The notes under the pieces were generated by a model. The model saw only the letters and a list, made by a program, of their open reading frames with translations. It searched no databases and was not told the DNA's origin. A stretch of 64,000 bases of DNA from Arenicola marina. Its lineage: Eukaryota; Annelida; Polychaeta; Arenicolidae. The stretch spans positions 18,885,143 to 18,949,142 of the forward strand of contig OZ025265.1 of assembly GCA_964019135.1 (NCBI GenBank), given 5' to 3'. Positions within the stretch are counted from its first letter, which is position 1. Each line of letters begins with the position of its first letter. Positions 12,816-63,777 of this stretch are shown piece after piece. Made by a program: the position numbers and the translations under genes.

Positions 12816-15800
12816 CTGACTGGTCCGGCAGGAGGTGGTACTGCTTCATGAGGAGCCAGTGATTGAAGAGCGCTTTGGCCGTCCGCCCGGGGTGAAAGGT
12901 CACGGGTTGAGAGGTCAACAGGTCTATAAACGTCTCGACTGTCGGCTGACTCGTCTAAACACCCGGGAAACAGACACGTCATCATGTCTTTATCAAAGCC
13001 AATTTCCCAACAAATTCGATATTCCAAACATGAAATGGTTGAGTCTCACGTGCCAGGGCGTTTCTCGATAAAACAATGTTAAAGAATTTAACAGCAGGTG
13101 GTTCAGAAAAATAGTTTACTCCGTGAAGTTTGTTGGCTAAACTGGGCAAAGAAAAGGTTGAAATATGCTCCAGATTAGGTGCCTGGGCCCGGATTCGACC
13201 CCAGGTATGATTGATCTGCGGTCTAATACGTTAATCACTACAATAGGAAGGCCCCCATGTGAAAAAGTTAAGTCTTTTTACAGAGACTTGACTCTCTCGT
13301 GGGACTTGCCACTTACTCCACTAAGGACAAGCCAGGACGGTTCCCCCCTCCTTGCTGTACAGGGCCTGTGAGTTACACTATGGACGGGTTGTGGCTTACC
13401 GAGGTGACTATACCCAGGAGGGTTTCCCCCTCCTTGCTGTACAGGGCCTGTGAGTTACACTATGGACGGGTTGTGGCTTACCGAGGTGACTGTACCCAGG
13501 AGGGTTTCCCCCTCCTTGCTGTACAGGGCCTGTGAGTTACACTATGGACGGGTTGTGGCTTACCGAAGTGACTGTACCAAGGAGGGTCCCCCCCCTCCTT
13601 GCTGTACAGGGCCTGTGAGTTACACTATGGACGAGTTGTGGCTTACCGAGGTGACTGTACCCAGGAGGGTCCCCCCCTCCTTGCTGTACAGGGCCTGTGA
13701 GTTACACTATGGACGGGTTGTGACTTACCGAGGTGACTGTACCCAGGAGGGTTTCCCCCCTCCTTGCTGTACAGGGCCTATGTGTTACACTATGGACGGG
13801 TTGTGACTTACCGAGGTGACTGTACCCAGGAGGGTTCCCCCCTCCTTGCTGTACAGGGCCTATGTGTTACACTATGGACGGGTTGTGGCTTACCGAGGTG
13901 ACTGTACCCAGGAGGGTTTCCTCCTCCTTGCTGTACAGGGCCTGTGAGTTACACTATGGACGAGTTGTGGCTTACCGAGGTGACTGTACCCAGGAGGGTT
14001 TCCCCCCTCCTTGCTGTACAGGGCCTATGTGTTACACTATGGACGGGTTGTGACTTACCGAGGTGACTGTACCCAGGAGGGTTCCCCCCTCCTTGCTGTA
14101 CAGGGCCTATGTGTTACACTATGGACGGGTTGTGGCTTACCGAGGTGACTGTACCCAGGAGGGTCCCCCCCTCCTTGCTGTACAGGGCCTGTGAGTTACA
14201 CTATGGACGAGTTGTGGCTTACCGAGGTGACTATACCCAGGAGGGTTTCCCCCCTCCTTGCTGTACAGGGCTTGAGAGTTACACTATGGACGGGTTGTGA
14301 CTTACCGAGGTGACTGTACCCAGGAGGGTTTCCCCCCTCCTTGCTGTACAGGGCCTATGTGTTACACTATGGACGGGTTGTGACTTACCGAGGTGACTGT
14401 ACCCAGGAGGGTTTCCCCCCTCCTTGCTGTACAGGGCCTATGTGTTACACTATGGACGGGTTGTGGCTTACCGAGGTGACTGTACCCAGGAGGGTTTCCC
14501 CCTCCTTGCTGTACAGGGCTTGAGAGTTACACTATGGACGGGTTGTGACTTACCGAGGTGACTGTACCCAGGAGGGTTCCCCCCTCCTTGCTGTACAGGG
14601 CCTATGTGTTACACTATGGACGGGTTGTGGCTTACCGAGGTGACTATACCCAGGAGGGTTTCCCCCTCCTTGCTGTACAGGGCTTGAGAGTTACACTATG
14701 GACGGGTTGTGACTTACCGAGGTGACTGTACCCAGGAGGGTTTCCCCCCTCCTTGCTGTACAGGGCCTATGTGTTACACTATGGACGGGTTGTGACTTAC
14801 CGAGGTGACTGTACCCAGGAGGGTTCCCCCCTCCTTGCTGTACAGGGCCTATGTGTTACACTATGGACGGGTTGTGGCTTACCGAGGTGACTGTACCCAG
14901 GAGGGTTTCCCCCTCCTTGCTGTACAGGGCCTATGTGTTACACTATGGACGGGTTGTGGCTTACCGAGGTGACTGTACCCAGGAGGGTTTCCTCCTCCTT
15001 GCTGTACAGGGCCTGAGAGTTGATGGCCGCCATGATGTCTGGGTGCAGCTGTTTGATGGCCTGGGACGCCAGCCTGTAACAACAGCGTCAGGAGACATAA
15101 TGAACACTACAACATTGTGAGGATGTATGATGTGCACGTAATGTTGACAGCGTGTGAAATAAAAGTAAGCATGGTGACCTTAACTTTTTATATGAATAAA
15201 ATACAAATAAAATTTATCGACGTGTAGGTGTCATAACAGTTTGTTTTGGCCGCTAACGGATCACGTGTAATCAAAAAAAACATTGAGACACATATTTAAA
15301 TATGGCAAATCTGATATGGGGGCCCCCTCATCGAAGTGTTTTTAGCTCTTGAACGAAAATGGTGACATGTATATATGTTCTCGTCTTTGAGCTTAGTATT
15401 TAATGCTCTTCAAATGGTGTGAAAATCCTGGGGGAAAAAACGTAAAAAATGTATCATACATTTTTAAGGGGAATTAGACATAAGACAAAAAAAGCAACAT
15501 GTTAAATTGACTATTTTTACGAATTATTATGTATCTATTTTATATAGGATCGATTCAGGGTAGCATTTTGGTTGGACGTCAAAGACAATTTCCCTTTTCA
15601 ATGCTCAAATTCCCCGTTCGTCCCCACGACTTACTTGGACAGGATGGGGTCGTACATGAGAGCGTACCAGCGTTCCTGGATTTCTTTCAAGGTAAACTTG
15701 CAGGTGAACTTCACTCCCAGGTAAACGGCGGTCAGATCACACGTCTGAAAACGACAAACACAGTATAGATTTATGTATAATTTATATATAAGTACAGATT

Positions 15801-21071: not shown

Positions 21072-21099
21072 GCGCCATATGGGAATTCCAATATGGCGC
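21072..21099. promoter_or_regulatory. 28-bp near-perfect palindrome
   Basis: GCGCCATATGGGAATT is followed by CCAATATGGCGC. All bases pair with the reverse complement except one symmetric pair. It carries two outward GCGCCATAT half-sites around GGAATTCC. It lies about 1.8 kb upstream of DNAJB11 and 2.6 kb upstream of the MCRS1 ATG. The symmetry suggests a dimeric protein site or a cruciform; function is unknown. Confidence 0.5.
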
Positions 21100-22863: not shown

Positions 22864-22872
22864 ACCGGAAGT
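22864..22872 (+). promoter_or_regulatory. ETS-type site at the DNAJB11 start
   Basis: ACCGGAAGT, the consensus of ETS/GABP factors, lies 30 bp before the DNAJB11 ATG. There is no TATA box close by. ETS sites near the start are common in TATA-less housekeeping promoters, so this probably belongs to the core promoter or early leader. Confidence 0.45.
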
Positions 22873-22901: not shown

Positions 22902-25900
22902 ATGGCTTCTCAAGCGCGGTGGTTGTGCCTCTTGGCAAGTTTGCTCTTGGTTTTGGTGGAAGTTCTTGGCGGGTAAGGAAATGTGGAGCTCTTTGGGGAA
23001 TTGCATGATGGTTAATTTGTTTGTTAAGGTCCATATTCTGAGTCTGAGATGGCTAACTGAAGCAGGATGATTGAATAATGTTCGGTGTTTACAATGTTGT
23101 GTGAACGGCCGTGTGAACCGGCTCGCTTAGCCAATGATATGTGCCCACGTGAAGTTACATACATATCACATACACACGATGCATGCTGATACATCTTCGT
23201 CATATATTGAACAAATTCCTGCCCCAAACAAGGTGCAAGCGATTGAGCAAAATTGTAAAATATCCCCTAATGGTAAAATTGTATGAAGGATATTGTAAAT
23301 AAAATATTCTAGATCTATTTAAGCTTACAATTTGATCTGGAATTTTATTGTAAATTTCTAAAGTCAAAGTCATAAATACCGTAGACACACGTTTCGGCCC
23401 ATATTATCTGCGAATTTGCCTCGATCACTCTCAAAATATCTGACGTGAGAAAGCAACACTAGACCATTTTAATGATACCAAACTTACGTTTGTACTGCGA
23501 TGTTATCCTTTTTTATGACACAAAGAATATTTCTCCATGCTATAAGCTTAGTCTATACTATTACCAGTTACTGATAGACTAAGTCTTAGGCCCAGTAGGT
23601 AGTTTGGTGTCTTACCGATTTCTGATTAGTCTTATCTTAATCTAATAAGTGTGGCCTAATAATTAAGTGTTAGACATATAATATTATTAAATTAAGGCAA
23701 TAGATATTTGCCAGTGACCAATTACCAAATGCCTTGGGCTTGGGGCTATTTGTTGGTGTCACAGAAATGCCCCTTTATGCAGAGATACCCCCCTTAAATA
23801 CAATGCATGATATTGATACCGTCTCCACTCCCACGCATTTATTCGATACCATTATGGTAGATACAAAATAAACATTTCTGAATAAGATAATAATAATGTT
23901 ATTCTCCAAAGTTCCAAAGGTATGCATCGCAAGTAAAAAACATATATATATTACATAGACAACAGCAGAAGCCTCGGCTTCACTTCTACCAATACCAATC
24001 CTAGATACTGATTAGCCATTATTCATTATATTATTATAATGCTGGTTATGGGCCTGTTTGGTACTATTTACCAGCAGGTATCAATACAGGATATTGCACT
24101 GGGGATCGTTTCACTAAGAGTTATGAGCTTGTAAGCATATCTTTTACATGCTTATTTAACGACAGATCTGAATTTTAAGAGCAACGGAAATAAGTGTTTT
24201 ACTGCGATTACTGGTGTGCAGCCATATGCATGAAATTTATTTTCTGCCAATATTATTCAAAAACATGCTTTCCATATTATTGATGGTAATTATAACATTT
24301 TTCATTTATTTTCGGGTGAACAAGACAATTTAAAAAATTTATGAGTAAAAATTGCAAGATCTTAATGAAATCATCCCCTGACAAAGAAAGAGACTCGATA
24401 ATTTACTGGCAAATTCAATGCATTAGCATTTGACTTAAGAGAAATATAACAATAGCGCAAGTTTGCAGGGCATTAGGCAATTTTTTTGGCCCGACATGAA
24501 GCTGTGGCAGCCAGCCAATTTTCATTATCTGCCTGAAGCCGCATAGAGGCCGAGGGCGGATAATGTTAATACATTAATCATATATTTTTTAATACCTGGA
24601 TTATGTACTTCATTCACAAGCCAGTCATTACAAAAATATAAAATGTACAGAGCTTATTTATCTATATAAGGATTTGTATAAAATCAACTTGGTTAAACAA
24701 ATTTTAGCATTTTTTTTTTAATAAGATCTTTTATAGTCTATGTGCAAAGAAAAGTTCTATAATGATAAGAGTCTTTTATTATAGGTAGGTAGTATGAAAT
24801 ATTTATTTGTATTGAGATGCTGTATGTTTATTATTGTATTTTTCAGGCGGGACTTTTATAACATTCTTGGAGTAAACAAAAATGCCAATACAAATCAGAT
24901 AAAGAAGGCATATAGAAAGCTTGCCAAAGAATTACATCCGGACAGAAATCAAAATGATCCAGATGCCAATGATAAATTTCGAAATCTGGGAGAGGCATAT
25001 GAGGTAAGTAACAGCTAAATATATTTTGGATTTGAGATGCTCCTACAAATGGTTATTTAGTTTAGAAAACCTTAATTGTGATATTGTAGATAATTATAAT
25101 AGTTATCACCATATATATCATTTCCTGTATTGTGCCTGCCTGACACTGTAAATATCTTTATTGTGATCAGATGAAGTTGTGGATCCATGCAATTCATGTA
25201 ATCCATGAATGCAATTCATATGGTATAACCGTATATTTAACAGTTAATAAAGTACTATATCAGATTGTTATCTTATACTGATTATATAGGTAGATAAATT
25301 CGGTACTAGTAGTTAGAATTGAAAAAAATTATATGTACCGGTATATATCAGTACTTTTTTGCTTGGGAGACACAGCAATAGTGTGGCAATTGTGTTATTT
25401 GCTGACCAATCATTGATTTACTGGTTACCGGTACATTGTAATGCATGAAACATATTTATTAATTATATCATATGCAACTGTAAACATATGTGTTTTTTTT
25501 GTCTAAAAATGTTTTGTACCATTTTCTCTAAAAAATTATCGAAATCTGATTGTTGTATAAGTGTAAGTGTTGTGCAGAACTGGGCTGTTGAGTATTCTGA
25601 TGTTGTGAAGGTCACTGTTCCATGTTGTGTGTATGTCCACGTCCTCTCGTGACTCTTCTAGGTGTTATCTGACTCTGAGAAACGAAAGATTTATGACAAG
25701 CATGGAGAGGAAGGACTCAAACAGGGCAACAACTTTGGGGATCCATTTGACTCCTTCTCCAGGTATGTCACCATCTGTCTATCTGTCATCTGTCACTTCC
25801 ATCAACCTTTGGCTCCTGTATATGGACAGATGTGATGCATGTCTGGGCTCGCGCTAGGATATTTTTTTCATTAGCCAATTTGGCTAATTCCGTGGAAAAA

Positions 25901-28900
25901 CATTAGCCAATATTTGTTCGAGGATTTTCTGGTTCCATTTGTTGAAAAAAACATGAATAAAAATGTGTTTGTAGTTGAAATTTTATATTCGCCATTTTGG
26001 CGAGTGTCCAGGAAGTTCTTATCGCCAAATCCCGGATTTTCTCGCCAAATGGCAATTGGCGAATGCTAACGCGAGCCCAGCATGTTCATCGAGCTGTGTA
26101 TTTATGAATGGCACTCTGTGATTGTTGTGCCTGGCATTGACTGGTGACTATCTCTATCGAGTGGAGTCTGATGGTGAGTAAGTCAAGGGAGTGCCGTAAT
26201 GATGTGAAAAGCCTCTCCACCTGTGGTGCAGGTCTTGTCTGATAGCGAGAAGAGAGCCATCTATGACAAACACGGGGAGGATGGATTGAAACAGAACCAG
26301 GCCGGATTCACAGACCCCTTTGAGGCTTTCTCCAGGTAACTCAGGGAAACCATGCATCGTGGTAGCCATGGTAACGCGCTCGGCTGCGTTCTGTGCTTTA
26401 GTTTTACTGTGGTAGCAGCCATCTCGTTGCAATAACCAGTGTCTGTACAGGGTATATATGTAGACCTAGTATGAAGAGTAAGTTTCTTTTTCGGCGTGAA
26501 ACTAGGGACATGTCTTTGACCTTATTACATTATTAATTCCATATGTTACAATATTTAGATTCCTTATGTTATATTACAGACAATTATCTTCCTTGGTTAT
26601 ATTATACCTGTGCCACCCCTTGGGTCTTCACGCCCTCTTGCAACGGCCTCTGGGGCATGTTTCATCCAAACCGATTTCACAGTCTCAGAGGGTTCTTGGC
26701 CCGGTTTAGCCTTTATACACAAATCAAAGCCTTATAAGCACCAACGTTTCATTTCCCTTCCCTGCCCCTCTCGTCTATCAGACGCAGTTGGCATACATGT
26801 AACAATAAATTATGACATTACAGATATAATGTTTTAATTTCAGATTGAACCAGTTTGTAATTATATTGGTTTTTGATAGATCCGATGGCCGTTTAAAGAT
26901 TAAAGTCGATGTCCATACATGTCTTTAGTACATTATAGTTTGTATGATTCAGGCCTACTGTAATGGACACGTTTGCATTACTATATGTTAATTTAGCTGT
27001 GCATCCATAGTATAAAGTAAAAACAAGACCATGAGACCCACCACATATGCGGTATAATATTATGTAATTAGCTATTACAGCGACGCTGGAGATCTCGTTA
27101 ATATATTCAGGTCTCTTTCAGCTTTTTTGGCGACTTTGGTTTTGGCGGCGGCGGTGGCAGTCGGGAGCGCGAGATTCCTAGGGGTGGTGACGTCATTATG
27201 GACCTGGAGGTCACGCTGGAGGAACTGTACTCTGGCACCTTTATAGAGGTGGGAACTATTCTCGGCCACCGTTTTAGAGGTGGGGACTATTCTCTGGCAA
27301 CTTTATAGAGATGGGAACTATTCTCGGGCAACTTTGTAGAGATGGGAATTATTCTCGGGCAACTCTATGGAGGTGGGAACTATTCTCGGGCAACTTTATA
27401 GAGATGGGAACTATTCTATGGCAACTTTATAGAGGTGGGAACTATTCTCGGGCACCTTTATAGAGGTGGGAACTATTCTCGGGCATTTATTGTGCTTGAA
27501 ATTGCCCTTTGTAGAGTGTAGGTCTCTACTGCGGTAAATTTGTAACGGAAAATATAAAACTGGTCAACTACCTGTTTGGCGAAAAATGTCATTAAGGCTT
27601 GGTGGGTTCGGTAGCTGTATGGTTAATAATAGACGCTCTGACTCCACGGGGTACCTTGGTTATGATGTCACTGGTTACCTTGGTTATGACGTCACGGGTT
27701 ATCTTGCTTATTACGACACGAGTTACCTTGGTTATGACGTCACGGGTTACCTTGGTTACAGGTGATCCGGTACAAGCCGGTTGCCAAGGCGTCGCCGGGC
27801 ACGCGGAAGTGTAACTGTCGCCAGGAGATGCAGACCATACAGCTGGGCCCTGGCAGGTTCCAGATGGTCCAGAAAGACGTCTGCGACGACTGTCCCAATG
27901 TCAGGTGAGTGTCGATTTCATCGGGATTGATCACGTGACGGGTGAATCACGGGACCCGTTGAGGTAGGTCACGTGACTAATTGTGGGAACACGTGACTCA
28001 TTGGGAAATATAACGTGACTCATCGGGAAAGATCCCATGGCTCAGTGATATAAATCACGTGACTCATTGGGATTGGTCACCTGACTAATTGGGTTGGATC
28101 ATGTGACTCACTGATATATACGAAGTGACTGTTGGAATATTAGTCACGATCCCACGAAATGGATGACTGTAGATAAGGGTAGGCGTGAGTAATACGTGAG
28201 CTATGCTGGAACTATGGTTCGCCCTAACGAGAAAGAACGACGCGCCAAGGCATTGAGATTGTGTTTACAACAAACCACTTTCGTTGCTTAACAGCTTTGT
28301 TTAATGTTAAAGCCGTGAGCGTTTAACGATACAAAAAACCCTGCTTTCTGACTGTGAGACAATATGAGACAAGATGAAAGTTTTAGAGGCATTAGGTGTT
28401 GTCTTCTATTGATCCTTCGCTAACGACCGCGTCTTGCGCTCTGCTCACTGCTCACTGTAACAGCTGGTCGCTCATTCGCTGCTGGGGACAGTGGGGTTCC
28501 TAAGGCCGGCTGGACCTCGGTCGAGGCGTGTGGGGGGGGGGGGGCTGGGGCGAGGGGGTCACTAGGTCCTGGTCTGTATCGACCCGCTCCTCCACTGCAA
28601 ATAATTAGGGCAACAGTTGTCGACTAAGATGTTATATAGTCAAGATGGCTCGTTGCCTTTCGCTAAGTTATTGATGACTACATGTAACTGAAGCTGTGTA
28701 AAGTGGCCCTGTATCCATTGTAGTGGATTTGAATCCTTTGGTCTGTGAAGCTGTAAAGTGGCCCTGTATCCATTCTAGTGGATTTGAATTCTTTGGTCTG
28801 TGAAGCTGTAAAGTGGCCCTGTATCCATTCTAGTGGATTTGAATCCTTTGGTCTGTGAAGCTGTAAAGTGGCCCTGTATCCATTGTAGTGGATTTGAATC

Positions 28901-46324: not shown

Positions 46325-49300
46325 CTAGGCTTTGGTTTCGGCTTCTGGGGGGTCCACGATGATCTCTGGCGCCGACACTGCGGTCCGGTTCTCTTCATCT
46401 CCCACATGAAACGTGACGGGACTCTGACTCTTAGAGCGGTGCTTGCTGTGGACAGAGGAATAACGTACCTCGTCAGGGTGCGATTAATACAAGAGCAGGG
46501 CTGTCATAACCATCAATGTTATATTATATAAAAATGGTAATAATAAAATGATTGGTTGAGCGTTGCGCAAACAATACATAGACGAGCCATTGTTTCACTT
46601 ACCGGTGTCCCCTATAACAGCCACTAACATCAATAAATCAACAGACGGCGCCATTGTTTCACAGACGATGCATGAGGTGGGAGCCGTAGCCTAGCGCCAT
46701 AACTTCTCCCACCGTTGTCTAGCGCCATGGTTTCACCCACCGTTGCCTAGCGCCATTGTTTTACTCACCGTTGCCTAGCGCCATTGTTTATCTCAACATT
46801 GCCTAGTGCTATTGTTTCACTCACCGTTGCCTAGCGTCATTGTTTCACTCACCGTTGCCTAGCGTCATTGTTTCACTCATCTTTGCCTAGCGCCATTGTT
46901 TTAATCACCGTTGCCTAGCGCCATTGTTTCACCCACCGTTGCCTAGCGCCATTGTTGCACCCACCATTGATTAGCGCCATTGTCTCACTCACCATTGCCT
47001 AGTGCCATTGTCTCACTCACCGTTGCATAGCGCCATTGTTTCACTCACATTTGCATAGTGCCATTGTTTCACTCACATTTGCCTAGCGCCATTGTTTCAC
47101 TCATCATTGCCTAGCGCCATTGTTTCACCCACCGTTGCCTAGCGCCATTGTTTCACTCACCATTGCCTAGCGGCATTCTTTCACTCAAATTTGCTTAGGG
47201 GCATTGTTTCACTTACCGTTGCCTAGCGCCATTGTTACACCCACCGGTGCCTAGCGCCATTGCTTCACGCACCATTGCCTAGCGCCATTGTTTCACCTAC
47301 TGTTGCCTAGCGCCTTTGTTTCACCCACCGTTGCCTAGCGCCATTGTTTCACTCACCATTGCCTAGCGGCATTCGTTCACTCACCATTGCCTAGCGGCAT
47401 TCTTTCGCTCAACTTTGCTTAGAGCCATTGTTTCACTTACCGTTGCCTAGCGCCATTGTTACACCCACCGGTGCCTAGCGCCATTGCTTCACGCACCATT
47501 GCCTGGCGCCATTGTTTCACCCATTGTTGCCTAGCGCCATTGTTTCACTCACCGATGCCTGAGGTGGAAGCCGTAGCCTAGCGCCATCGTTTCACTCACC
47601 CTTGCCCAGCGCCATTGTTTCACCCACCGTTGCTTAGCACCATTGTTTCACTCACCGATGCCTGAGGTGGAAGCCGTAGCCTAGCGCCATCGTTTCACTC
47701 ACCCTTGCCCAGCGCCATTGTTTCACCCACCGTTGCTTAGCACCATTGTTTCACTCACCGATGCCTGAGGTGGAAGCCGTAGCCTAGCGCCATCGTTTCA
47801 CTCACCCTTGCCCAGCGCCATTGTTTCACCCACCGTTGCTTAGCACCATTGTTTCACTCACCGACGCCTGAGGTGGGGGCCGTTGCCTAGCGCCATTGTT
47901 TCACTCACCCTTGCCTAGCGCCATTGTTTCACTCACCGATGCCTGAGGTGGGAGCCGTTGCTCTGCCGGCTGCTGGCCTCGTTGGCCACCAGTTGCTTCC
48001 ACAGGGCCGTCTTGGACATGTTCTCGGAGACGTGGATCTGGTTGTGAACCGGGTCATACGTGATTTGGTCCACCGGGATCTTGATGGACTTGCCGCCAGC
48101 CAGAGAGATGTACACCGTGCCGCTCCGCACCTCCAGGGTCTCCTGGGAAACAGGGGGGGGGGGGGGGAAGGGAGGGGGGTGAAGCAAAACATGACCATTA
48201 TGATAGGGTCGGATCCAGATATGCTGAAAAAGAATGGGGGGGGGGGGGGGAGGCTTCGAGTAATGGCCTAGCTTTTTGGTTTTCATATGATTAACGATAT
48301 AAATTTATTTTGCCCCCCCCCCCCTCCCTCTCCTTGGATCTGCCCCTGTATGAGGATTGATTAAATAGAGAAGCTTTATTTCGCACTAATCAGGCCATAG
48401 GCCCATAGTACAGAATACGTGTATATTCGATCAGACTATGGACAAATGATGGAATTTCGAATTTTCATTGCATGATACACAAGTGCTGCGACATTTTGAA
48501 TAGTTCTGCCAAGCTTAGATTCATTTGATGGATTTAGGTAGGACGTTTTAACCTCTGTTCTAAGGTCATATCGCGACAACGGGAAGGGTCAAGATAGAGA
48601 GGAGCCATGTGTCTCCAAGGAGTAAGTAACCCCCTTCTCTTTACAAGAGAAGGAAGAAATGGAATATGTTACCTGCACAGACACAGACATTTCCCTATAT
48701 GGGATTCGAACCCTGCGTCGTGGCGCTTAGGCTAGCATAGTAGTTCACACGCGACCACAGCCGAACGCGTTACCCAATAGGCTATGGGGTAGTATATTGG
48801 TGGATTGTATATTCAGGACGCTTTAATCACTTTTGGTCTTATCGCGTCAACGGGAGAAGGAAGGGAGAGTGGAGCCATGTCCCAGGGAGTAACCCCTTAC
48901 TCTTTGCCAAGAAGGACATGGAATCTTTGTCCTGCGGCGACACAGACATGGCCACCGCAGGGCGCGAACCACCAACCCACGTGCTGTTAGGCTCTCAGGT
49001 GACCAGAACACTCAATGCGAGCGCTCTAACCAACTGAGCTATCGAGGCGGCCCCCGTAATATCAATGAATATGTAATAATAATAAACTCAATATTAATTA
49101 TTAAATAGAAACAAAAATGATATATACAGTCATGTCTTTAGTACTTAATCCGAGCTGGACAAACGGATTGTTGGATCAGACACCAGCTAGCCCAAGAGAT
49201 ACATGTGACCAGATAAATCAATGCGAGCGCTCTAGCCCATGAGCTATCGAGGCGGCCCCCAACGGGGTAGTAGAGGCTCCATGAGAAGTAACTCGCTTCA

Positions 49301-52300
49301 CCTTTGCGTCGCCCTTGGCGTCGTTTTCCAACAGTTTCTTCTGCTCCTCCTTCTCTCGCTTGTGGGACTCCGGCATAATGTCGTCCAGCCACTGCAGCTC
49401 GTGGCGAGTGAAGACCCAGTCCAGAGCCTTGCGCACAAACCCCATCGCCATGACCTGTAGGAGGAAAGGTAGGACGCTCCATCATCCGTATGTCATATCA
49501 GGGCGGATCCAGGAATTTGCTACAGGGGTGGGGGGAAGGGTGCTCTTTGAAAACGTGTTACCAGGGTGGGGGGGTTGCTCGGAGAACCCGACTTTAACAG
49601 TGTGTCATTAAGTTCCCAAGGGGGGGGGGGTACAACCCCCCATTAGATCCGCCCCTGCATATCGGGACAATGGGAGAGGGGAGGCGGTGAAGGTAGAGAG
49701 GAGCCATGTCTCGTGGAGTAACCCTCTAGTCTTTGCGAAGAAAACTCTGGAAGGATATATGTAATGCACAAACATCGACCTTTGCACAGGTGGGATTTGA
49801 ACCACGCACCGGCCGCTTGAACTAGCCTATCAAAGCACACTCGACAACTGCCGAGCGCGCCGCCTACTGGGTCATCAATCACGTGGTTGGCGGGGTGGAG
49901 ACAGTGAACCTATATACATCCGAAAATCCAGCCAAAAAAAAACATTATGTGAAACGCTTGATCCTAGCTGATGTAGATGATATTTTACCCTTGAAGACAA
50001 CACAAGCTTGCAACGATCCATTATCAGATCTTGCGTGCTACGTGGACGTTACCTGGACGTTACGTGGAAGTTACGTGGACGTTACGTGGACGTTACTTGG
50101 ACGTTACGTGGACGTTACGTGGACGTTACTTGGACGTTACGTGGACGTTACTTGGCGTTACCTGGACGTTACTTGGACGTTACTTGGACGTTACGTGGAC
50201 GTTACCTGGACGTTACCTGGACGTTACGTGGACGTTACGTGGACGTTACCTGGACGTTACGTGAACGTTACCTGGACGTTACGTGGACGTTACGTGGACG
50301 TTACTTGGACGTTACGTGGACGTTACGTGGACCCCCGTGGACCTGTGTCTATGATGGGACGAGAGACGATGACGTCACACTTACCATGAGCGGGAAAATG
50401 ATGGAGATGAACTTGACCGTTTTGATGGCCCACAGGGCGGCCAGACAGATGACTTGGATGAGGGTGAAGAGGTGGACTCTCTTGAGGGGCACGTGGCGGA
50501 GGAACATGTAGTCCGGCTGGTACTTAGACGGCATGAACAGGATCAAAAACCGCTGCATAAACTGAAGGACGAAATACAAAAATGCTGCCATTAAAATAAA
50601 GCCAGCATAAGGATGTATCATGATTATGGCCATATAATTTAATTCATCTACCATTCACTGCTGGGTAATAGTTCCTAACATCTATCATTTATGGTTTATT
50701 CGTTCCTGATACAAATTGCAATAAAATACGATATCTTAATTCCACTTACACACATAATGTAATATAGTTGTCGCTAGCTGCTGTGTTCCACCAGTGCTTG
50801 AAGTTCTGTAATTACCTCTAACTTTGGCATGGGGCCCTTCCCCGACAAAAACAAATAACTATGATATGCATGAAGCCATAATTAATATAACATTGATGCG
50901 GGTACCCCCATCTGATATCAACACATTATTGGTTTACAAGTGGGCTGGTGGGCGAACGGGGGGAAGGGGGGGGGAGGGGGGGGTGTACCTGGATTCCCTT
51001 GAGGGATGCCACACCCATGAATAGGAACACTCCGTACAGAACAGCCATCGGTATGATCTGAAACAAGAAATAAGTAAGTCAGACGTATATCAATACTGCC
51101 ACAATGACAGCACCCATTACGGACAATAGTGCGTTGCAGACACCCCTGGCGACATCTACCATCAACTGTCAGAACTTCCCCTACAACGGTCTATAATTTC
51201 TGTTACTTTTACATATACATGTACTAATTTAATATTCATAAATAATAATAATAATAATAATAATAATTTGACTGTATAAGACATGCATACAACATACATC
51301 CACATACATGTGGACACCAATGCAAAAATCCAATGCCAATACATACTTATATTTATGCTCTGCTTTGTAGTATAATTGCCATATACTTACCTGAACCATC
51401 GGTATATTATTTATTGCATAGACCTTTAAGCTGACCATCAGTATATTATTTATTACACTGAACTTTGGCAAGTTGACCATCAGTATATTATCTATTACAT
51501 TGACCTTGACCATGCTAACCATCAGTATATTATTTATTAGACTGACCTTGAACATGCGGACCATCAGTATATTATTTGCTACACTGACCTTGAACAGGCG
51601 GACCATTAGAATATTATTTATTCCACTGACCTTGACCATGCTAACCATCAGTATATTATCCATAACACTGACCTTGAGCATGCTGAACATCAGTATATTG
51701 TCCATTACACTGATCTTGAGCAAAGTAACCATCAGTATATTGTTCATTACACTGACATTGAGCAAAGTAATCATCAGTATATTGTTCAGTGCACTGAACT
51801 TGAGCAAAGCAACCAGCAGGATATTGTTCATTATACTGACCTTGAGCAAAGTAACCATCAGTATATTGTTCACTACTGACCTTGAGTAAAGTAACCATCA
51901 GTATATTGTTCACTACTGACCTTGAGCAAAGTAACCATCAGTATATTGTTCACTACTGAACTTGAGCAAAGTAACCATCAGTATATTGTTCATTACACTG
52001 ACCTTGAGCAAAGCAACCAGCAGGATATTGTTCATTATACTGACCTTGAGCAAAGTAACCATCAGTATATTGCCCATTACACTGACCTTGAGCAAAGTAA
52101 ACATCAGTATATTGTTCATTACAATGACCTTGAGCAAAGTAACCATCAGTATTTTGTTCATTATACAGACCTTGAGTAAAGTAACCATCAGTATATTGTT
52201 CACTACTGACCTTGAGCAAAGTAACCATCAGTATATTGTTCACTACTGACTTTGAGCAAAGTAACCATCAGTATATTGTTCATTATACTGACCTTGAGTA

Positions 52301-55300
52301 AAGTAACCATCAGTATATTGTTCATTATACTGACCTTGAGCAAAGTAACCATCAGTATATTGTTCATTACACTGACCTTGAGCAAAGTAATCATCAGTAA
52401 ATTGTCCATTACTCCCTACCTTGAGCAAAATAGACATGAGTGTATTATCCATTGCACTGAGCTTGAGCAACGTAACCATCAGTGTATCGTTCATCACACT
52501 GACCTTCAGCATGCCGGCCATGAGAGCTGACAGTCCAACCATGATGAACACCAGAGTTCCGGTCACTCGTTGCTCCCTGTAATATTTCACAAACAACGGT
52601 TTTTTTAATCTTTCAATAAATCAATAACTACGGCTGAGAGACGTGCACAGGCACCGATCGCCATCTTGGAAAAAGCCAGACTGGCGCAACTACAGTTTAC
52701 TACAGGAACAAACATAATGTTAGGAATGAGACAATCTGTAAAAAGAAAAGAAGTCTATGTCAATTACACTCAGAAGATATACGCTTTACTTCACACGGAT
52801 GCCAATATAATGCCATTTCATAATCTAATTAATGTGCTGTCATATGATGACGCTACCTTGACACAAACCCAGAATGCATAGCATATACAATGGCGCATTA
52901 GTATCTGAGAGTGGGGGATTATGTGGACGGTATGACTAATTTGCAATGAAACCTTATCGAATAACAAGAAACAAGTTCTTACAGACGCCATGATCATGGG
53001 TTACGGAAAATCCATGCACAAATGAAAACCTGTCGGTTTTTCAAGCGGTTATGGAGTTTATATCACGGACAAGGATAGATCTAATAACACTGGTTAAGAA
53101 CTTTTTTATGTATATTTATTTTTTCTCACACTTGCACACCTTTGTACATAGGACACCTGAAATTGTTTAACGATACGGGTTAACCAACTATATGTGCATA
53201 CGATGCTGGAAACCTCAGACCTTAGAAAATAAATCACGTCTAAAAACAAATTTGTTTACAACCCTCAGACTTCAGAAAATAAATCACGTGTTAAAAAATT
53301 TGAAACAAAAACCCCCTCAAACCTCCGAAACTAAATCACATCTAAAAAGCTATTTAAAAATAATCCTTAGCTATATATATATTTAGACATCAGAAAAAAA
53401 TTACGTCTTAATTTTTTTTTTAAAGACCCTCAAACCTATATATATACACATAAGGAAAAAAATCACGTCTTAAAACGTCTAAAAAAGATATGTTGGATGG
53501 CGCGGGTGTCGCTAGTCCTGCAAGCAAGCCGCTGTGGCTACCACCAACAGCGCTCCGCGACTGGACCCATATCTGAGCGGTCTACGTTACATCTATGGAA
53601 TTATAGGGTGTCGCGTACCTGACCCCGAGGAACTTGGGCCTCTCCCCCGGCGCTGAGGTCTCGGACTCCCGGGTCAGACTGCGCACGTGGACGATGGAGA
53701 GGACGATGGCGGCGATGAACCAGGGAGTGCCGACCAGCGAGCAGATGGCAAGCTGAGCCGCCACCACCAGCAGGTCCAAGTGGAAGCCGCCGCCCTTCTG
53801 CAACGCCGTGACGTCATCACGTGAGGTGTCATGTCACACGGTGACGTCATTACGTTAGAGAGTTAGGTGCTATATATGTCACACAGTGACGTCATTACGT
53901 TGGGGACGTGTCATCATGTCACACGGTGACGTAAGTACGTTGGGAAGCTAGGTGGTATATATGTCACACAGTGACGTCATTACGTTGGGGAGCTAGGTGT
54001 CATGATTTGTGATACGGTGACGTCATTACGTGAGGAGGTGTTATATGTCACATGGTGACGTCATCACGTGAGGAGGTGTCATCAAATGTCACACGGTGAC
54101 GTCATTATGTGAGAACATTTGTTTATATGTGAGATGACGACGTCCGACTCATTAGATGACGAACTTCGCTCTTATTCAAGACGATAACATCATTACGTGT
54201 ACAGATATATCCCTCTGCCGCAAGATGACGTAACTACGCGAAAATTAATTCTTAGCATGTGCAACGATGGCGAAAACCGGACTAACGAATCTTATGAGAT
54301 TATGACATAAACACAAGCAGCAATCTCCATATTCAGATGAAATATCGCCTCCATCAAAAGTTATAAGTTGAAAATGCATTGTTTTTTGGAATACCTCATA
54401 TATTGTTAGTTATATACATGATATTATATACATATATTGTCATATTATATATATTCTATAACATATAAATTGTTATACTATATATATTATGGTTACATGT
54501 AGTTATATTATATATAGTTATATTATATATAGTTATATTATATATAGTTCTATTATATATAGTTATATTATATATAGTTCTATTATATATCATATAATTG
54601 TAAGGATTTGGCAATCCGTACCCGCAGTTTGTTCTCCTTCCTGTTGATGATGACACCAGTGATCTGCTGATCCATAAAGACCAGGATTGTGGCCAGGATG
54701 GCAGGCAAGATGGCGGCAGGGATGGCCCAGAGGGGGTTCTGGAAGGGATCGACGATCCAGCCCCGGTCATGGCGGGTAGGCTGTGGAGGACATGGAGCGA
54801 GAGAAATCATGATACACAATTTGGATTGCTGAAATCCCGTGGGAATATAATAGACATCTCGTGGAAATAAAATGGAAATTCCGAGGAAATATAATGGAAA
54901 TCCCATGGAAATCCCGAGGAAATATAATGGAAATTCCATGGAAATCCCGAGGAAATATAATGGAAATTCTATGGAAATCCCGAGGAAATATAATGGAAAT
55001 CCCGAGGAAATATAATGGAAATCCCATAGAAATCCCGAGGAAATATAATGGAAATCCCATGGAAATCCCGAGGAAATATAATGGAAATTCTATGGAAATC
55101 CCGAGGAAATATAATGGAAATCCCATAGAAATCCCGAGGAAATATAATGGAAATCCCATAGAAATCCCGAGGAAATATAATGGAAATCCCATAGAAATCC
55201 CGAGGAAATATAATGGAAATCCCATGGAAATCCCGAGGAAATATAATGGAAATTCCATGGAAATCCCGAGGAAATATAATGGAAATCCCATAGAAATCCC

Positions 55301-58300: not shown

Positions 58301-61300
58301 TACGGCAAAGCACACCAATTCCCTTAACATACGATTGGGGTAACCTTATAATAATTGCATACTTCTAACACACAGACAACACTGACTTCGTCTGGTGTGG
58401 AAAGGGATCACGCAAGTACACACGCTGCACAGTGATGGTCACCGGTGTTTAAAGAGGTAAGCGTGACACAGGCTATACACAGTATTACATACTGACCTGA
58501 CCCAGTATTACATACTGACCTGACCCAGTATTACACACTGACGTGACCCAGTATTACACACTGACCTGACCCAGTATTACATACTGACCTGACCCAGTAT
58601 TACACACTGACCTGACCCAGTATAGAAACTGGTCAAAATAGTTACCTTTACCGGCTCATACAGGGGTTCACACACGGACCACATATTGACCTCATACTGA
58701 TCTTGGGGTTAAAACCCATAACGACCTTTTCCGGGTCACACAGGGGTCACACAAAGACCGCGGATTGACCTTCCCGGTATTGAAACAGGTCACACCCAGA
58801 CCCCACACCGACCTCAACCTGACTCACAAAGGGGGCCACATCCAAACCCCACACCGACCTCAACCCGACCCACAAAGGGGGCCACATCCAAACCCCACAC
58901 CGAACTCAACCCGACTCACAAAGGGGGCCACACCCAGACCCCACACCGACCTCAACCCGACCCACAAAGGGGGCCACATCCAAACCCCACACCGACTTCA
59001 ACCCGACTCACAAAGGCGGCCACACCCAGACCCCACACCGACCTCAACCCGACCCACAAAGGGGGCCACACCCAGACCCCACACCGACCTCAACCCGACC
59101 CACAAAGGGGGCCACATCCAAACCCCACACCGAACTCAACCCGACTCACAAAGGGGGCCACACCCAGACCCCACACCGACCTCAACCCGACTCACAAAGG
59201 GGGCCACATCCAAACCCCACACCGACCTCAACCCAACTCACAAAGGCGGCCACACCCAGACCCCACACCGACCTCAACCCGACCCACAAAGGGGGCCACA
59301 CCCAGACCCCACACCGACCTCAACCCGACCCTCAAAGGGAGACACACCCAGACCCCACACCGACCTCAATCCGACCCACAAAGGGGGCCACACCCAGACC
59401 CCACACCGACCTCAACCCGACTCACAAAGGGGGCCACACCCAGACCCCACACAGACCTCAACCCGACCCACAAAGGGGGACACACCCAGACCCCACACCG
59501 ACCTCAACCCGACCCTCAAAGGGGGACACACCCAGACCCCACACCGACCTCAACCCGACCCTCAAAGGGGGCCACACCCAGACCCCACACCGACCTCAAC
59601 CCGACCCTCAAAGGGGGCCACACCCAGACCCCACACCGACCTCAACCCGACCCACAAAGGGGGCCCACAACCAGACCCCACACCGACCTCAACCCGACCC
59701 AGAAAGGGGGCCACACCCTGACCCCACACCGACCTCAACCCGACCCACAAAGGGGGCCACACCCAGACTCAACACCGACCTCAACCCGACCCACAAAGGG
59801 GGCCACACCCAAACCCCACATCTACCTCATCCCAACCCACAAAGGGGGCCCACACCCAGACCCCACACCGACCTCAACCCGACCCACAAAGGGGGCCACA
59901 CCCAAACCCCACACCGACCTCAACCCGACCCACAAAGGGGGCCACACCCAGACTCAACACCGACCTCAACCCGACCTACAAAGGGGGCCACACCCAAACC
60001 CCACACCGACCTCAACCCGACCCTCAAAGGGAGACACACCCAGACCCCACACCGACCTCAATCCGACCCACAAAGGGGGCCACACCCAGACCCCACACCG
60101 ACCTCAACCCGACTCACAAAGGGGGCCACACCCAGACTCCACACAGACCTCAACCCGACCCACCAAGGGGGCCACACCCAAACCCCACACCGACCTCAAC
60201 CCGACCCACAAAGGGGGCCACACCCAGACTCAACACCGACCTCAACCCGACCCACAAAGGGGGCCACACCCAAACCCCACATCTACCTCATCCCAACCCA
60301 CAAATGGGGCCACACCCAAACCCCACATCTACCTCATCCCAACCCACAAATGGGGCCACACCCAAACCCCACATCTACCTCATCCCAACCTACAAATAGG
60401 GCCACACCCAAACCCCACATCTACCTCATCCCAACCCACAAATGGGGCCACACCCATACCCCACATCTACCTCATCCCAACCCACAAATGGGGCCACACC
60501 CAAACCCCACATCTACCTCATCCCAACCCACAAATGGGGTCACACCCAAACCCCACATCTACCTCATCCCAACCCACAAATGGGGCCACACCCAAAACCC
60601 ACATCTACCTCATCCCAAACCCACAAAGTGGGCCACACCCAAACCCCACATCTACCTCATCCCAACCCACAAATGGGGCCACACCCAAACCCCACATCTA
60701 CCTCATCCCAACCCACAAATGGGGCCACACCCAAACCCCACATCTACCTCATCCCAACCCACAAATGGGGCCACACCCATGACCGACCTCAACACGACTC
60801 ACAAGGGGCCACACCCAAACCCCACACCGACCTCAACCCGACCCACACTGACCTTGATTCGGCGTCGCTCCCAGTTCGCCCGCCGATCCGTTGCCTAGCG
60901 ACGTCCCGTTGCCTGGCGACGTCCCGTTGCCAGGGACGCACTGACAGGTCCTGATGACGTCACTGGGGCGGTCGATGCCATAGACTTCGAGGATGTGGAA
61001 GAGCTCCTTGAAGGCGGCGACGATCAGGATGAGGGCGATCAGCATGGCGAAGCTCTCCTCCGTGAAGCGGGTGATGTACTTGACGAGGGCGCTCAGGTCG
61101 AAGGCCACAATCAGCACCAGCGCCAGACACATCCACATTCCGATCCAGAAGCGGAAGGACAGGTACATCAGTCCGTATTCCCTGGATCAGGCGTCAACGC
61201 ATACAGGATACACAACATATATGAGGAGAATTAGCGGTCAAGGACTAGGAAACATCAGTCCGTAGTCTCTGGATCAGGTGTCAACATGTACAGGGTACAC

Positions 61301-63777
61301 AACATATATACTGTCATATCAGGCGAATTAGTCTTTGTATGACACTCAGCATATATACTATAAGGCGAATTAGTCTTTGCATCATACACAGTATATATAC
61401 TATAAGGCGAATTAGTCTTTACATGACACACAGCTTATATACTATAAGGCGAATTAGTCTTTACATGACACACAGCTTATATACAATAAGGCGAATTAGT
61501 CTTTACATGACAAACAGCTTATATACTATAAGGCGAATTAGTCTTTACATGACACACAGCTTATATACTATAAGGCGAATTAGTCTTTACATGACACACA
61601 GCTTATATACTATAAGGCGAATTAGTCTTTGCATCATACACAGCAAATATGCTATAAGGCGAATTAGCGGTCTTTGCAAAAGGACAGGTACATCATTCAG
61701 TCCATATTCTCTCGACCGGAGATTAAGATGATAAGGATGATAATACACGGACAAAGATGATTATACACGGCAGATGGCTGGTCAGTCGAAAAGAAACAAC
61801 CGTGCATACACGGCTGCTTTTAATTTCTCATAAATTTGCACAAATGCAGGATTCAAAGGAAGCTAAATTGTCCTTATTACTTAAAATGTAATCAGCTTTT
61901 ATTGGACATTTGGATAATTTCATCATTCCAAATATCCATCGTCTTTCGCAGACGGACGGATGCCAAACCAAAAACCATCATTCCAAATATGCCACCTTAT
62001 TCGGATTTGCATCATTTAATTACATTAACTAATGTTAACAAATGTTAAGCATGTTTTTTAAACCTAACAAATTGTGTCCGCACTATTTTTAAAGTTTCTG
62101 TTTCATACTGAACTAACTAACTGAAACGATGTAATTGTTCATAAGAAGCACCAATTTCAATTTAACATAAATGTTTTATTATTTTAAATATTAACAATCT
62201 TCATTTTTATAAACCAGATAAATACTTACTTGCAGAAGTTGTAGACAATGGCTTCGAAGACTAGGACAGGTCCAGTGGAGCCCAGGAAGGTAAGAGGCTG
62301 GCCGCCAAACAGGTGGAAACACACGCCGGCGATGGCACCAGACACCAGACTCTCCATGGCCGCCTGGCGAAAGGGAGAACCAGCGTAATGACAAAGAGAT
62401 GGAAACACACGCCGGCGATGGCACCAGACACCAGGCTCTCCATGGCCGCCTGGTGAAAGGGGAAACCAGCGTAATATACAAACCGGTGGAAACACACGCC
62501 GGCGATGACACCACACACCAGGCTCTCCATGTCCGCCTGGTGAAAGGGGGAACCAGCGTAATGACAAAGAGATGGAAACACACGCCGGCGATGGCCCCAG
62601 ACACCAGGCTCTCCATGTCCGCCTGGTGAAAGGGGGAACCAGCGTAATATACAAACCGGTGGAAACACACGCCGGCGATGGCACCACACACCAGACTCTC
62701 CATGGCCGCCTGGCGAAAGGGGGAACCAGCGTAATGACAAAAAGGTGGAAACACACGCCGGTGATGGCACCAGACACCAGGCTCTCCATGTCCGCCTGGT
62801 GAAAGGGGGAACCAGCGTAATGACAAACAGGTGGAAACACACGCCGGTGATGGCACCAGTCACCAGGCTCTCCATGTCCGCCTGGTGAAAGGGGGAACCA
62901 GCGTAATGACAAACAGGTGGAAACACACGCCGGCGATGGCACCAGTCACCAGGCTCTCCATGTCCGCCTGGTGAAAGGGGGAACCAGCGTAATGACAAAC
63001 AGGTGGAAACACACGCCGGTGATGGCACCAGTCACCAGACTCTCCATGTCCGCCTGGTGAAAGGGGGAACCAGCGTAATGACAAAGAGGTGAAAACACAC
63101 GCCGGCGATGGCACCACACACCAGACTCTCCATGGCCGCCTAGTGAAAGGGGGAACCAGCTTAATGACAAACAGGTGGAAACACACGCCGGCGATGGCAC
63201 CACACACCAGACTCTCCATGTCCGCCTGGTGAAAGGGGGAACCAGCGTAATATACAAACCGGTGGAAACACACGCCGGCGATGGCACCCCACACCAGACT
63301 CTCCATGGCCGCCTGGTGAAAGGGGGAACCAGCGTAATGACAAAGAGATGGAAACACACGCCGGCGATGGCACCAGACACCAGGCTCTCCATGTCCGCCT
63401 AGTGAAAGGGGGAACCAGCGTAATGACAAACAGGTGGAAACACACGCCGGTGATGGCACCAGTCACCAGACTCTCCATAGCCGCCTGGTGAAAGGGGGAA
63501 CCAGCGTAATGACTTATGGAACAATGCATGGACTATATAGTATTGGTGAGATAGTGAAGCTGGCCGCCCCAAGCAGCACCCCTCAACCACACCCCAACTC
63601 ACCAGGTGGTTGTCGGTGGCCGCCCCCAGCAGCCCCCCGAAGGTGATGACGTTGGTGAGCGCCGCCAGGTAGAGGAATAGGAATGACCCCAGACACTGGA
63701 TGTGCAGCGAGTCCCGGAAGTCACTCAGGTACCACGCCCACTTCCGCTTGATGTCCATCACCAGACCGCCGAAGAGT
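46325..63777 (-). CDS. Na+-coupled bicarbonate transporter, SLC4 family (N-terminus outside window)
   Basis: Multi-pass plasma-membrane carrier moving Na+ with bicarbonate or carbonate. Minus exons: A 63777-63603, B 62363-62230, C 61181-60853, D 57341-57088, E 56743-56630, F 54780-54622, G 53797-53619, H 52576-52504, I 51057-50989, J 50561-50385, K 49454-49302, L 48142-47937, M 46445-46325. All phases agree, giving 713 C-terminal residues. Landmarks in order: [47 protein letters not shown], four loop cysteines (CQC, VCEE, GCDH) with four N-glycosylation sequons, [88 protein letters not shown] and C-terminal ETKA. FMDQQIT...INRKE marks the Na+-coupled branch (NBCe/NBCn/NDCBE), not the anion exchangers. 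C-terminal MSKTALW is closest to NBCn/NDCBE types. Confidence 0.93.
46640..47936 (-). repeat. 28-bp minisatellite copying the SLC4 exon L donor
   Basis: About 45 units. On the minus strand the unit is GGTGAGTGAAACAATGGCGC and TAGGCAAC, so most copies present G/GTGAGTG, a strong 5' splice site. The array starts exactly at the real donor (47936-47935). Four further copies of the exon end itself, CCACCTCAGGCATCG before GTGAGT, lie at about 47570, 47665, 47761 and 47868, and a decayed one at 46670. Confidence 0.95.
48206..48350. mobile_element. Poly-G MITE with CGGATC ends
   Basis: Left end GTCGGATCCAGA and right end TTGGATCTGCCCCTG, with G-tract and C-tract inside, in SLC4 intron K-L. Same layout as 49499-49657. 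Confidence 0.55.
48537..48792 (-). mobile_element. tRNA-derived SINE, family 2
   Basis: On minus the head contains CTATTGGGTAACGCG (A-box-like) and GCAGGGTTCGAATCCC (B-box). The body has GTGCAGGTAACATATTCC and GGAGACACATGGCTCCTC. It shares its far end with family 1 (GGTCATATCGCGACAA) but differs in the middle, so the two families are related by their tails. Confidence 0.75.
48805..49052 (-). mobile_element. tRNA-derived SINE, family 1
   Basis: The best preserved head: on minus GATAGCTCAGTTGGTTAGAG and GGTGGTTCGCGCCCTGC, then the usual body ending at GTCCTGAATATACAATCC. It lies directly next to the family-2 copy in SLC4 intron K-L. Confidence 0.88.
49222..49257 (-). mobile_element. SINE family 1 head fragment
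   Basis: Minus strand GCCGCCTCGATAGCTCATGG and GCTAGAGCGCTCGC: the first ~35 bp of the head only. It lies 45 bp from the donor of SLC4 exon K. Confidence 0.65.
49499..49657. mobile_element. Poly-G MITE with target-site duplication
   Basis: Inverted ends CAGGGCGGATCC and GGATCxGCCCCTG-type (right end GATCCGCCCCTG). It is flanked by a perfect 5-bp direct repeat CATAT (49494-49498 and 49658-49662). G-tracts lie in the middle. SLC4 intron J-K. Confidence 0.75.
49662..49882 (-). mobile_element. tRNA-derived SINE, family 2
   Basis: Minus strand carries GTGCGTGGTTCAAATCCC (B-box-like), CCTGTGCAAAGGTCGA-type and GGAGACATGGCTCCTC-type body elements. It lies immediately beside the poly-G MITE in SLC4 intron J-K. 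A short piece of the same body also occurs at 56345-56385. Confidence 0.65.
50035..50335. repeat. 11-bp GGACGTTACxT minisatellite
   Basis: About 27 units of GGACGTTACGT, GGACGTTACTT or GGACGTTACCT, just inside SLC4 intron J-K, 50 bp from the exon J donor. The third-position changes alternate irregularly. Open frames through it are artefacts. Confidence 0.92.
51400..52503 (-). repeat. 42-bp minisatellite copying the SLC4 exon H donor
   Basis: About 26 units of 39-43 bp. On minus: GTCAGTGTAATGAACAATAT, ACTGATGGTTACTTTGCTCA and AG. The first unit starts at the real donor (ATGCTGAAG/GTCAGTG at 52503-52502). Later units reproduce TGCTCAAG/GTCAGTG, i.e. the last eight exon bases plus donor. The unit at 52461 has lost the GT (CTCAGT), and the one at 52419 has GTAGGG. 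The first two units are exactly 42 bp and stop-free in the exon's frame. Confidence 0.95.
52650..52890. repeat. Dispersed repeat, relative of 42205-42500
   Basis: CGCCATCTTGGAAAAAGCCA and GACTGGCGCAA at the left and ACCCAGAATGCATAG at the right match the element at 42205. It lies in SLC4 intron G-H. Confidence 0.6.
53192..53480. repeat. Diverged ~68-bp repeats
   Basis: Four degenerate copies of CCTCAGACxTxxGAAAATAAATCACGTCTTAAAA-like sequence in SLC4 intron G-H, AT-rich, ending 140 bp before exon G. Confidence 0.6.
53805..54120. repeat. ~40-bp repeat carrying TGACGTCA sites
   Basis: Eight units of GTCACACGGTGACGTCATTA and CGTTGGGGAGxTAGGTGTCAT. Seven keep an intact TGACGTCA (consensus CRE/ATF site), one reads TGACGTAA. 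The array ends at the acceptor of SLC4 exon G. Confidence 0.88.
54400..54600. repeat. TA-rich tandem repeat
   Basis: ATATAGTTATATTAT-type 18- to 19-bp units in SLC4 intron F-G, ending about 20 bp from the exon F donor. No protein sense. Confidence 0.85.
54838..56095. repeat. 33-bp minisatellite in SLC4 intron E-F
   Basis: About 33 uniform copies of GGAAATCCCGAGGAAATATA and ATGGAAATCCCAT (subtypes CCATGG, CCATAG, TCCATGG, TCTATGG), with degenerate GGAAATAAATTAGAAATCTC copies to 56095. The unit is a multiple of three, so 300-400-codon open frames arise on both strands (for example an 11-residue [11 protein letters not shown] repeat on minus, plus an opposite NGNPxEIPRKY frame). Not copied from a splice junction. 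Confidence 0.96.
58470..58625. repeat. 26-bp minisatellite
   Basis: About six copies of CAGTATTACATACTGACCTG and ACC in SLC4 intron C-D. It leads into the larger 46-bp array. Confidence 0.88.
58770..60850 (-). repeat. 46-bp minisatellite starting at the SLC4 exon C donor
   Basis: About 45 units. On plus: CACACCCAGACCCCACACCG, ACCTCAACCCGACCCACAAA and GGGGGC. On minus each has GAGGTCGGTGTGGGG, similar to the real exon C donor AAG/GTCAGTGTGGG at 60852. A distinct subtype (ACATCTACCTCATCCCAACC) forms a homogeneous block at 60270-60780. A multi-unit block around 59330-59460 recurs at about 60020-60150. Confidence 0.93.
61252..61720 (-). repeat. Two decayed copies of the SLC4 exon C start
   Basis: At 61252-61290 the minus strand repeats CTGATCCAG plus GACTACGGACTGATG, and at about 61676-61715 it repeats GAATATGGACTGAATGATGT and ACCTGTCCTTTTGC. 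Both correspond to the acceptor and first codons of exon C (CCTGATCCAG/GGAATACGGACTG, 61182). A 42-bp minisatellite lies between them. Confidence 0.8.
61325..61670. repeat. 42-bp minisatellite in SLC4 intron B-C
   Basis: Eight copies of GGCGAATTAGTCTTTACATG, ACACACAGCTTATATACTAT and AA, enclosed by the two decayed exon C start copies. Confidence 0.92.
62364..63515 (-). repeat. 86/87-bp minisatellite copying the SLC4 exon B acceptor
   Basis: Thirteen tandem copies plus the real exon start. On minus each unit has GCTGGTTCCCCCTTTCACCA, then G/GCGGCCATGGAGAGTCTGGT and GTGCCATCGCCGGCGTGTGT TTCCACC: a pyrimidine tract, an AG acceptor and the first 18 codons of exon B ([18 protein letters not shown]). 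Copies alternate 86 and 87 bp, i.e. a 173-bp dimer. The array fills nearly the whole intron A-B. Confidence 0.96.

Follow-up and report, generated by a model that had tools for sequence, protein, structure and literature searches.

Exon-Border Minisatellites in an Annelid Genome and Their Excess at Splice Donors

Introduction

Why should minisatellites in an annelid genome carry exon borders inside their repeat units? The question is raised by a 64-kb stretch of Arenicola marina DNA (contig C20 of an assembly of 867 Mb in 762 contigs), and "the window" below refers to the whole of this stretch. A first-pass annotation had described six arrays that begin exactly at exon borders, regarded them as hard to reconcile with random birth of minisatellites and pointed to "mirages" from amphioxus. 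Such structures are indeed in print. Mirages, which are minisatellites at exon-intron boundaries, occur in the lancelet Adh3 gene (Canestro et al. 2002, cited in PMC3087553), in the globin genes BflGb6 and BflGb9 (PMC3087553) and in the genes for troponin C and PGBD5 (PMC3902484). One of these reports calls the mechanism of origin unclear and splicing seemingly undisturbed (PMC3087553).

Results

Exon Borders in the Repeat Units of the Window

The window is dense in minisatellites, with 69 TRF rows and 35 merged arrays of period at least 12. Four genes were mapped in it: a cyclin B-like gene (Pfam Cyclin_N match), MCRS1 (Pfam MCRS_N match; a PDB search with a piece of it returned no match), a DnaJ gene (Pfam DnaJ and DnaJ_C matches), which we take to be DNAJB11, and SLC4 (PDB matches to sodium bicarbonate transporters). 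From conserved exons and their GT/AG ends, 35 donors and 35 acceptors were mapped.

Arrays were delimited by TRF and by copies of the junction, and the adjoining exons by border mapping, aided by the sequence itself at the MCRS1, DnaJ and 28-bp SLC4 arrays. Five of the six arrays, at four donors and one acceptor, contain exon sequence together with the junction. In MCRS1 (minus strand), about 20 copies of an 82-bp unit at 13332–15021 include 57 bp of the exon end and the donor; the exon (14965–15073) has its 3′ end within the array, the first intron base is 14964, and 19 copies of this junction lie in the intron. The DnaJ gene (plus strand) carries 8.5 copies of a 31-bp unit at 27221–27485 with the donor inside; here the exon at 27122–27248 ends within the array, and the donor (first intron base 27249) has seven junction copies. 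The remaining cases are in SLC4 (minus strand). A 28-bp array at 46684–47961, with higher-order units of 75 and 103 bp, includes about 25 bp of the 3′ end of the exon at 47937–48142, and there are six copies of the junction whose first intron base is 47936. The 42-bp array at 51434–52511 (about 26 copies) extends only about 8 bp into the exon at 52504–52576, and donor 52503, named by its first intron base, has a single junction copy matching 20/24 bases. At the acceptor, 14 copies of an 86-bp unit (62306–63513) repeat the splice site and 58 bp of the start of an exon assigned by border mapping and SLC4 homology (62230–62363), so that the exon start recurs upstream; 13 junction copies accompany the authentic acceptor, whose first exon base is 62363. 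The claim of a border inside the unit fails for the sixth array, also in SLC4 and placed by TRF and border mapping (58791–60847, minus strand, 46-bp unit, about 45 copies): it starts at intron base 6 of donor 60852, abutting the donor without exon sequence, and holds no copy of that junction at 20/24. The repetition of exon ends in introns, with the junction in the unit, agrees with the proposal that the exon border was copied into the intron.

Two further duplications had been pointed out. The DnaJ gene indeed contains, by reading, a whole exon in two tandem copies (plus strand) of 101 bp (25662–25762) and 104 bp (26232–26335). Both are open, and both lengths are 2 modulo 3, so that only one copy per transcript could be used without a frameshift; the pair probably represents mutually exclusive exons encoding the end of the J domain. 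In the acceptor region of SLC4 exon C (61181–61740, minus strand; first exon base 61181), one of the two claimed decayed copies of the exon start was detected near 61268 (offset −87, 21/24 match), whereas the second, near 61719, is seen by eye only; a 42-bp array (61317–61667) lies between them.

By TRF, 4/35 donors of the window are captured by arrays (expected 0.60–0.67, P 0.003–0.005), as is 1/35 acceptors (expected 0.60–0.67, P 0.45–0.49). A TRF-free test finds 3/35 donors (p = 0.056) and 2/35 acceptors (p = 0.22), with 0.9 expected of each. These counts are suggestive, and the arrays were picked after the fact; the window alone is weak, and the sample outside it carries the case. No junction copies were found at the 16 mapped borders of the cyclin gene. 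An intron array of this gene (9654–9971, unit 82–88 bp) contains the donor-like motif CAAG/GTAAGG; the closest mapped exon border is about 160 bp away, and no matching exon was noticed. The array is possibly a decayed exon-border array.

Capture of Donors and Acceptors outside the Window

Conserved exons of the DnaJ, myosin and SNF-transporter families, and later of the kinesins, were sampled with their surrounding DNA from the same genome. The sample comprises 56 islands (226 kb, 89 donors) and seven kinesin stretches (26 kb), together 117 donors and 105 acceptors. Used were 7/34 DnaJ rows (the window row and rows without a locus being dropped), all 77 myosin rows and 40/98 SNF rows, the last chosen by eye as lying in or near sampled loci; 103 of 123 rows of these families fall within the sampled DNA, one SNF row was added later, and not every match gave a border. 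For kinesin, 30/133 rows were used, from stretches picked for dense exons (short introns), and one match within them with four stops was dropped. Exon ends were set by the HMM match and a splice-site matrix trained on the 70 window borders; the predicted borders lie at a median of 3 bp from the HMM end. Capture by TRF means an array overlapping the exon by at least 8 bp. The TRF-free test is a direct 24-mer comparison with a reach of 600 bp and asks that the junction lie within the edge unit of an array. Under the null, a junction falls in such an edge unit as often as any noncoding position, represented by 10,449 noncoding positions drawn at random from the same DNA, the window included; these were kept at least 60 bp from mapped exons only, and unmapped exons may be among them.

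The proposed comparison of splice sites with other positions, run on this sample, revealed an excess at donors, while that at acceptors is not significant. By TRF, arrays reach into the exon at 17/117 donors, about 1 in 7, against 2.8–3.1 expected (P 1e-8 to 3.5e-8), and at 6/105 acceptors against 2.6–2.8 (P 0.05–0.06). The TRF-free test likewise yields 17/117 donors versus 2.5% of the control positions (5.8-fold, p = 6e-9) and 5/105 acceptors versus the same control (1.9-fold, p = 0.12). The two donor counts are equal but differ in membership. Captured by TRF only are C12:10169582 and the SNF donor C13:2678942, for which the border was set at a second copy lying 37 bp downstream; captured by the TRF-free test only are C12:34187954 (25/28) and C12:10161763 (21/28), each of which has just one, weaker copy. 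The C4 muscle myosin gene has three whole-exon matches at its donors, at offsets of 860–1945 bp; these lie past the 600-bp reach and are uncounted. A junction copy matching at least 26/28 bases is present in 14/15 island donor captures. When HMM-aligned coding sequence is used in place of predicted borders, its end is overlapped by an array at 18/117 donor sides and 5/105 acceptor sides; one of the six TRF acceptor captures falls short of the HMM-aligned coding sequence. The sequence given with the results of this sample is INDEPENDENCE.

The donor excess outside the window is firm in this sample. Captured donors are found in 11 and captured acceptors in 4 of 41 gene clusters. When these clusters were resampled 5000 times, the donor rate had a 95% interval of 6.8%–22.8%, and no draw came down to the control rate. 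Dropping the SNF cluster on C13 left donors at 14/110 (p = 7e-7) and acceptors at 5/101 (p = 0.11). Donors differ from acceptors by Fisher's test (p = 0.023; 0.056 without the SNF cluster) and by cluster resampling (P = 0.005). The kinesin subset has 2/28 donors by TRF (expected 0.60–0.65, P 0.12–0.14) and 2/26 acceptors by TRF or 3/26 by the TRF-free test, with no asymmetry between them. The excess of donors over acceptors is suggestive, likely but unproven.

Could minisatellites simply arise anywhere, some of them straddling borders, with selection tolerating those that leave an exon copy intact? The genome is full of arrays: they make up 20% of bases in the first 43 sampled loci (0 to 75% per locus), and a tandem copy lies within 600 bp of 25% of the random noncoding control positions, so some arrays must touch exons. 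The acceptors fit such uniform birth, as does the kinesin subset. At donors, however, the null already spares every border-straddling duplication, and 17 are still observed where 2.8–3.1 are expected. We consider uniform birth unlikely as the explanation.

Position, Length, and Age of the Arrays

In the 56 islands, the density of array edges is 2.2–3.3 per kb across the five bins between −75 and +25 relative to donors and 0.2–0.7 per kb more than 100 bp past them, with a bump of 2.25 per kb at 75–100 bp. Acceptors have no peak at the border (0.5–0.8 per kb from −100 to +8) and a milder rise 8–75 bp upstream (1.5–2.0 per kb). The arrays do not, then, begin exactly at the border as had been stated. 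Their donor-side edges are spread rather than piled on the junction, which indicates that the border has no fixed place in the unit and does not itself serve as the breakpoint. Base units measure about 18–133 bp; higher-order units are longer.

Arrays that capture a border are long, with a median of 373 bp compared with 114 bp for the others when uncut arrays are considered (a further 7 and 24, respectively, are cut by locus ends). Some are also old. Three paralogous SNF-transporter genes (L064, L065, and L067; C13:2.68–2.80 Mb) carry homologous arrays of the 37-bp type at the same donor, and their intron arrays are 77%–79% alike while their exon ends are 92%–99% alike; the array is thus probably older than the gene copies. 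Another island, the fourth of this cluster (L061), also has a 37-bp array near its exon.

Length and age would be expected if birth were even and duplications holding a border merely lasted longer in view, one copy being conserved coding sequence and nearby deletions being selected against. By reasoning, such an effect should amount to at most about 2-fold and be equal at acceptors; this matches the acceptors (1.9-fold) but not the 5.8-fold excess at donors. Longer persistence or detection is thus quite unlikely to account for the whole, although part of the donor excess could come from longer detectability, because one copy is a conserved exon.

Conservation of Splice Signals in the Copies

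Across 15 donor arrays comprising 286 units, a mean of 88% of units retain the donor GT. Within units, the donor 9-mer lies at a mean conservation percentile of 0.68 among unit 9-mers and above 0.5 in 12/15 arrays (p = 0.026); in the other 3, two of them in the window, donor conservation is below the median. Conservation was measured within units, where the effect is smaller, and not against the authentic copy, a comparison biased by the choice of arrays partly for junction identity. On average, the copies are weaker in score than the authentic donor (7.87 versus 8.98, p = 0.0035), and the strength of captured donors does not clearly exceed that of other donors (8.77 versus 7.86, p = 0.09). 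At acceptors, AG is kept in 57% of units on average in five arrays, and the units of two of these five lack it, which fits selection against decoy acceptors, small as the number of arrays is.

In the islands outside the window, tandem DNA holds 70% of 631 strong cryptic donors on the sense strand versus 41% of 336 on the antisense strand. Within the sampled islands, decoy donors reside mainly in repeat arrays. One might suppose that arrays of U1 binding sites are kept for the benefit of the gene, for example to guard the intron from premature cleavage or to regulate splicing, and both the sense-strand bias and the conservation of the donor 9-mer would accord with this. Donor-like motifs, however, are not clearly more frequent in non-capturing arrays (22% sense, 15% antisense) than in background (19%), the copies are weaker than the authentic donor, and donor conservation falls below the median in the three arrays mentioned. 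A function as decoys is improbable on this evidence.

Base Composition and the Donor Motif

The first-pass annotation had offered R-loops and GT-rich donors as possible causes, and neither suggestion is sustained. Birth driven by sequence, whether through GC-rich exon ends, GT-rich donors or R-loop-prone, G-skewed strands that duplicate more readily, could draw on the somewhat raised GC content of arrays (0.475 in non-capturing and 0.518 in capturing arrays versus 0.433 in background). A birth weight based on GC, however, predicts a 1.16-fold excess at donors and 1.58-fold at acceptors, which is the wrong order. Sense-strand GC skew in non-capturing arrays averages −0.001, compared with 0.034 in background, and so does not show the G-rich, C-poor non-template strand of an R-loop-driven repeat. 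Strong donor-like motifs away from mapped exons lie in edge units in 20/631 cases (3.2%), near the control rate, and a donor motif alone is therefore not enough. The bare motif, GC content and GC skew are all disfavored, and sequence-driven birth is very improbable.

That the assembler made or miscounted the tandem copies is hardly credible, for although the arrays are judged from the assembly alone and the window contains a gap of 200 N (11862–12061), copies differ among themselves (mean unit conservation 0.86–0.97 across the 15 donor arrays), cases are spread over many contigs, and lancelet PGBD5 repeats of this kind were confirmed by re-examined reads (PMC3902484).

Discussion

A Proposed Bias Linked to the Splice Junction

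The reading that we favor, with modest confidence, is that the arrays are exon-border minisatellites of the mirage kind in an annelid and that the donor excess reflects a bias in the birth or retention of tandem duplications linked to the junction. A segment of about 20–130 bp straddling a working exon-intron junction would duplicate in tandem. Of the resulting copies, the one attached to the exon would stay under coding selection and remain the used splice site; because it is unchanged, the duplication would be tolerated. Extra copies would end up within the intron, where the usual turnover of minisatellites would expand them, and exon definition may render the decoy donors harmless. Tolerated duplication needs a further cause beside it, given the excess at authentic donors. 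This may be a local bias at authentic junctions, through more frequent birth, for instance by transcription- or splicing-coupled breakage or re-copying near the donor, or through longer persistence.

A stronger version, which we put forward tentatively and hold to be somewhat short of an even chance, is that working donors are hot spots of tandem duplication, where transcription or splicing rather than the motif makes the surrounding 20–130 bp duplicate several times more often, filling introns with intact decoy donors. If this were true, splicing would shape mutation, and lancelets might share the process, whether through common descent or through convergence.

Relation to Lancelet Mirages and Other Boundary Repeats

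As in the lancelet mirages, the tandem units contain the splice junction and the extra copies are intronic; units with an exon-intron boundary occur in 5/6 window arrays and, outside the window, at the 17/117 donors and 6/105 acceptors captured by TRF. Donor and acceptor borders can both be duplicated in lancelets, and both are duplicated here, in the window and outside it. Splice signals are present in many but not all units, as the retention of GT (88%) and AG (57%) indicates, and unit sizes overlap (10–160 bp in lancelets versus about 18–133 bp for base units here). The differences are that the host is an annelid, that the rate was sampled with a matched control and that donors exceed acceptors. 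Mitochondrial sequence independently identifies the host as an annelid near Phyllodocida rather than a lancelet. COX1 translates well under the invertebrate mitochondrial code, and among the best 120 of 7,999 scored COX1 proteins the top match is Pilargis wolfi at 91%, followed by Saccocirridae and Phyllodocida. The gene order nad3-S-nad2-cox1-N-cox2-D-atp8-Y-G-cox3, in which the protein genes other than COX1 were recognized by eye, agrees with that of annelids. A search for GFP (PF01353) gave no match, a result that does not demonstrate absence.

A model of intron gain through tandem duplication (Rogers 1989, cited in PMC3087553) likewise involves short duplications at or near exon borders that may open new splice choices, as do the internal tandem repeats described for exon-intron boundaries in human segmental duplicates (PMC2812944). 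The repeats reported here differ in being intronic, beside conserved exons, and they are known as arrays and not as new introns. In C. elegans, CeRep25B is an intronic minisatellite near regions of alternative splicing (PMC4039745); it resembles the present arrays in the concentration of minisatellites near splicing decisions and differs in being one named repeat that recurs across many genes rather than local copies of exon borders. Among annelids, the earthworm metallothionein gene also has large intronic minisatellite blocks, in its first intron, and one clone has duplications of the fourth exon that are missing from the transcript; the accessible part of that report describes no units containing a splice junction (PMC12783039). 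Titles and abstract openings of the literature on annelid minisatellites and splicing and on boundary repeats contain no annelid case or sampled rate among the matches listed. Within the scope of this search, what is new is the phylum of the host, a capture rate measured on a sample against matched control positions, and the excess at donors.

If the pattern held genome-wide, a curiosity of a few lancelet genes would become a measurable process that links splice donors, DNA duplication and intron growth. The arrays would also provide natural splicing experiments, in which the true donor precedes as many as dozens of nearly identical copies to be ignored, even in so basic a gene as myosin. Both the question of origin, whether splicing or transcription causes the duplications, and that of recognition, why the first donor is used, become directly testable.

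Additional Features

A myosin gene (L039 and L040, C4:367000–386499) is poor in minisatellites (2% coverage) and has about four tandem alternative exons at each of two places (profile 590–640 and 110–154). The 3′ half of MCRS1, beyond the exon that ends at 12816, was not noticed within the window, in which the gap at 11862–12061 lies. Dispersed repeats with a tRNA-like segment (GGTTCGA-type box), recognized by eye at about 3400, 12250, 16640, 31100, and 48700–49250, are perhaps tRNA-derived SINEs; they received no call by ARAGORN or by Rfam at gathering scores. Very long homogeneous arrays were reported by TRF outside the analyzed exons, at 35892–39673 (33 bp × 115) and 1–2588 (30 bp × 86). 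Within the coding sequence of SLC4, TRF also reported an 18-bp tandem repeat (60888–60931), which encodes repeated NGTS-like residues.
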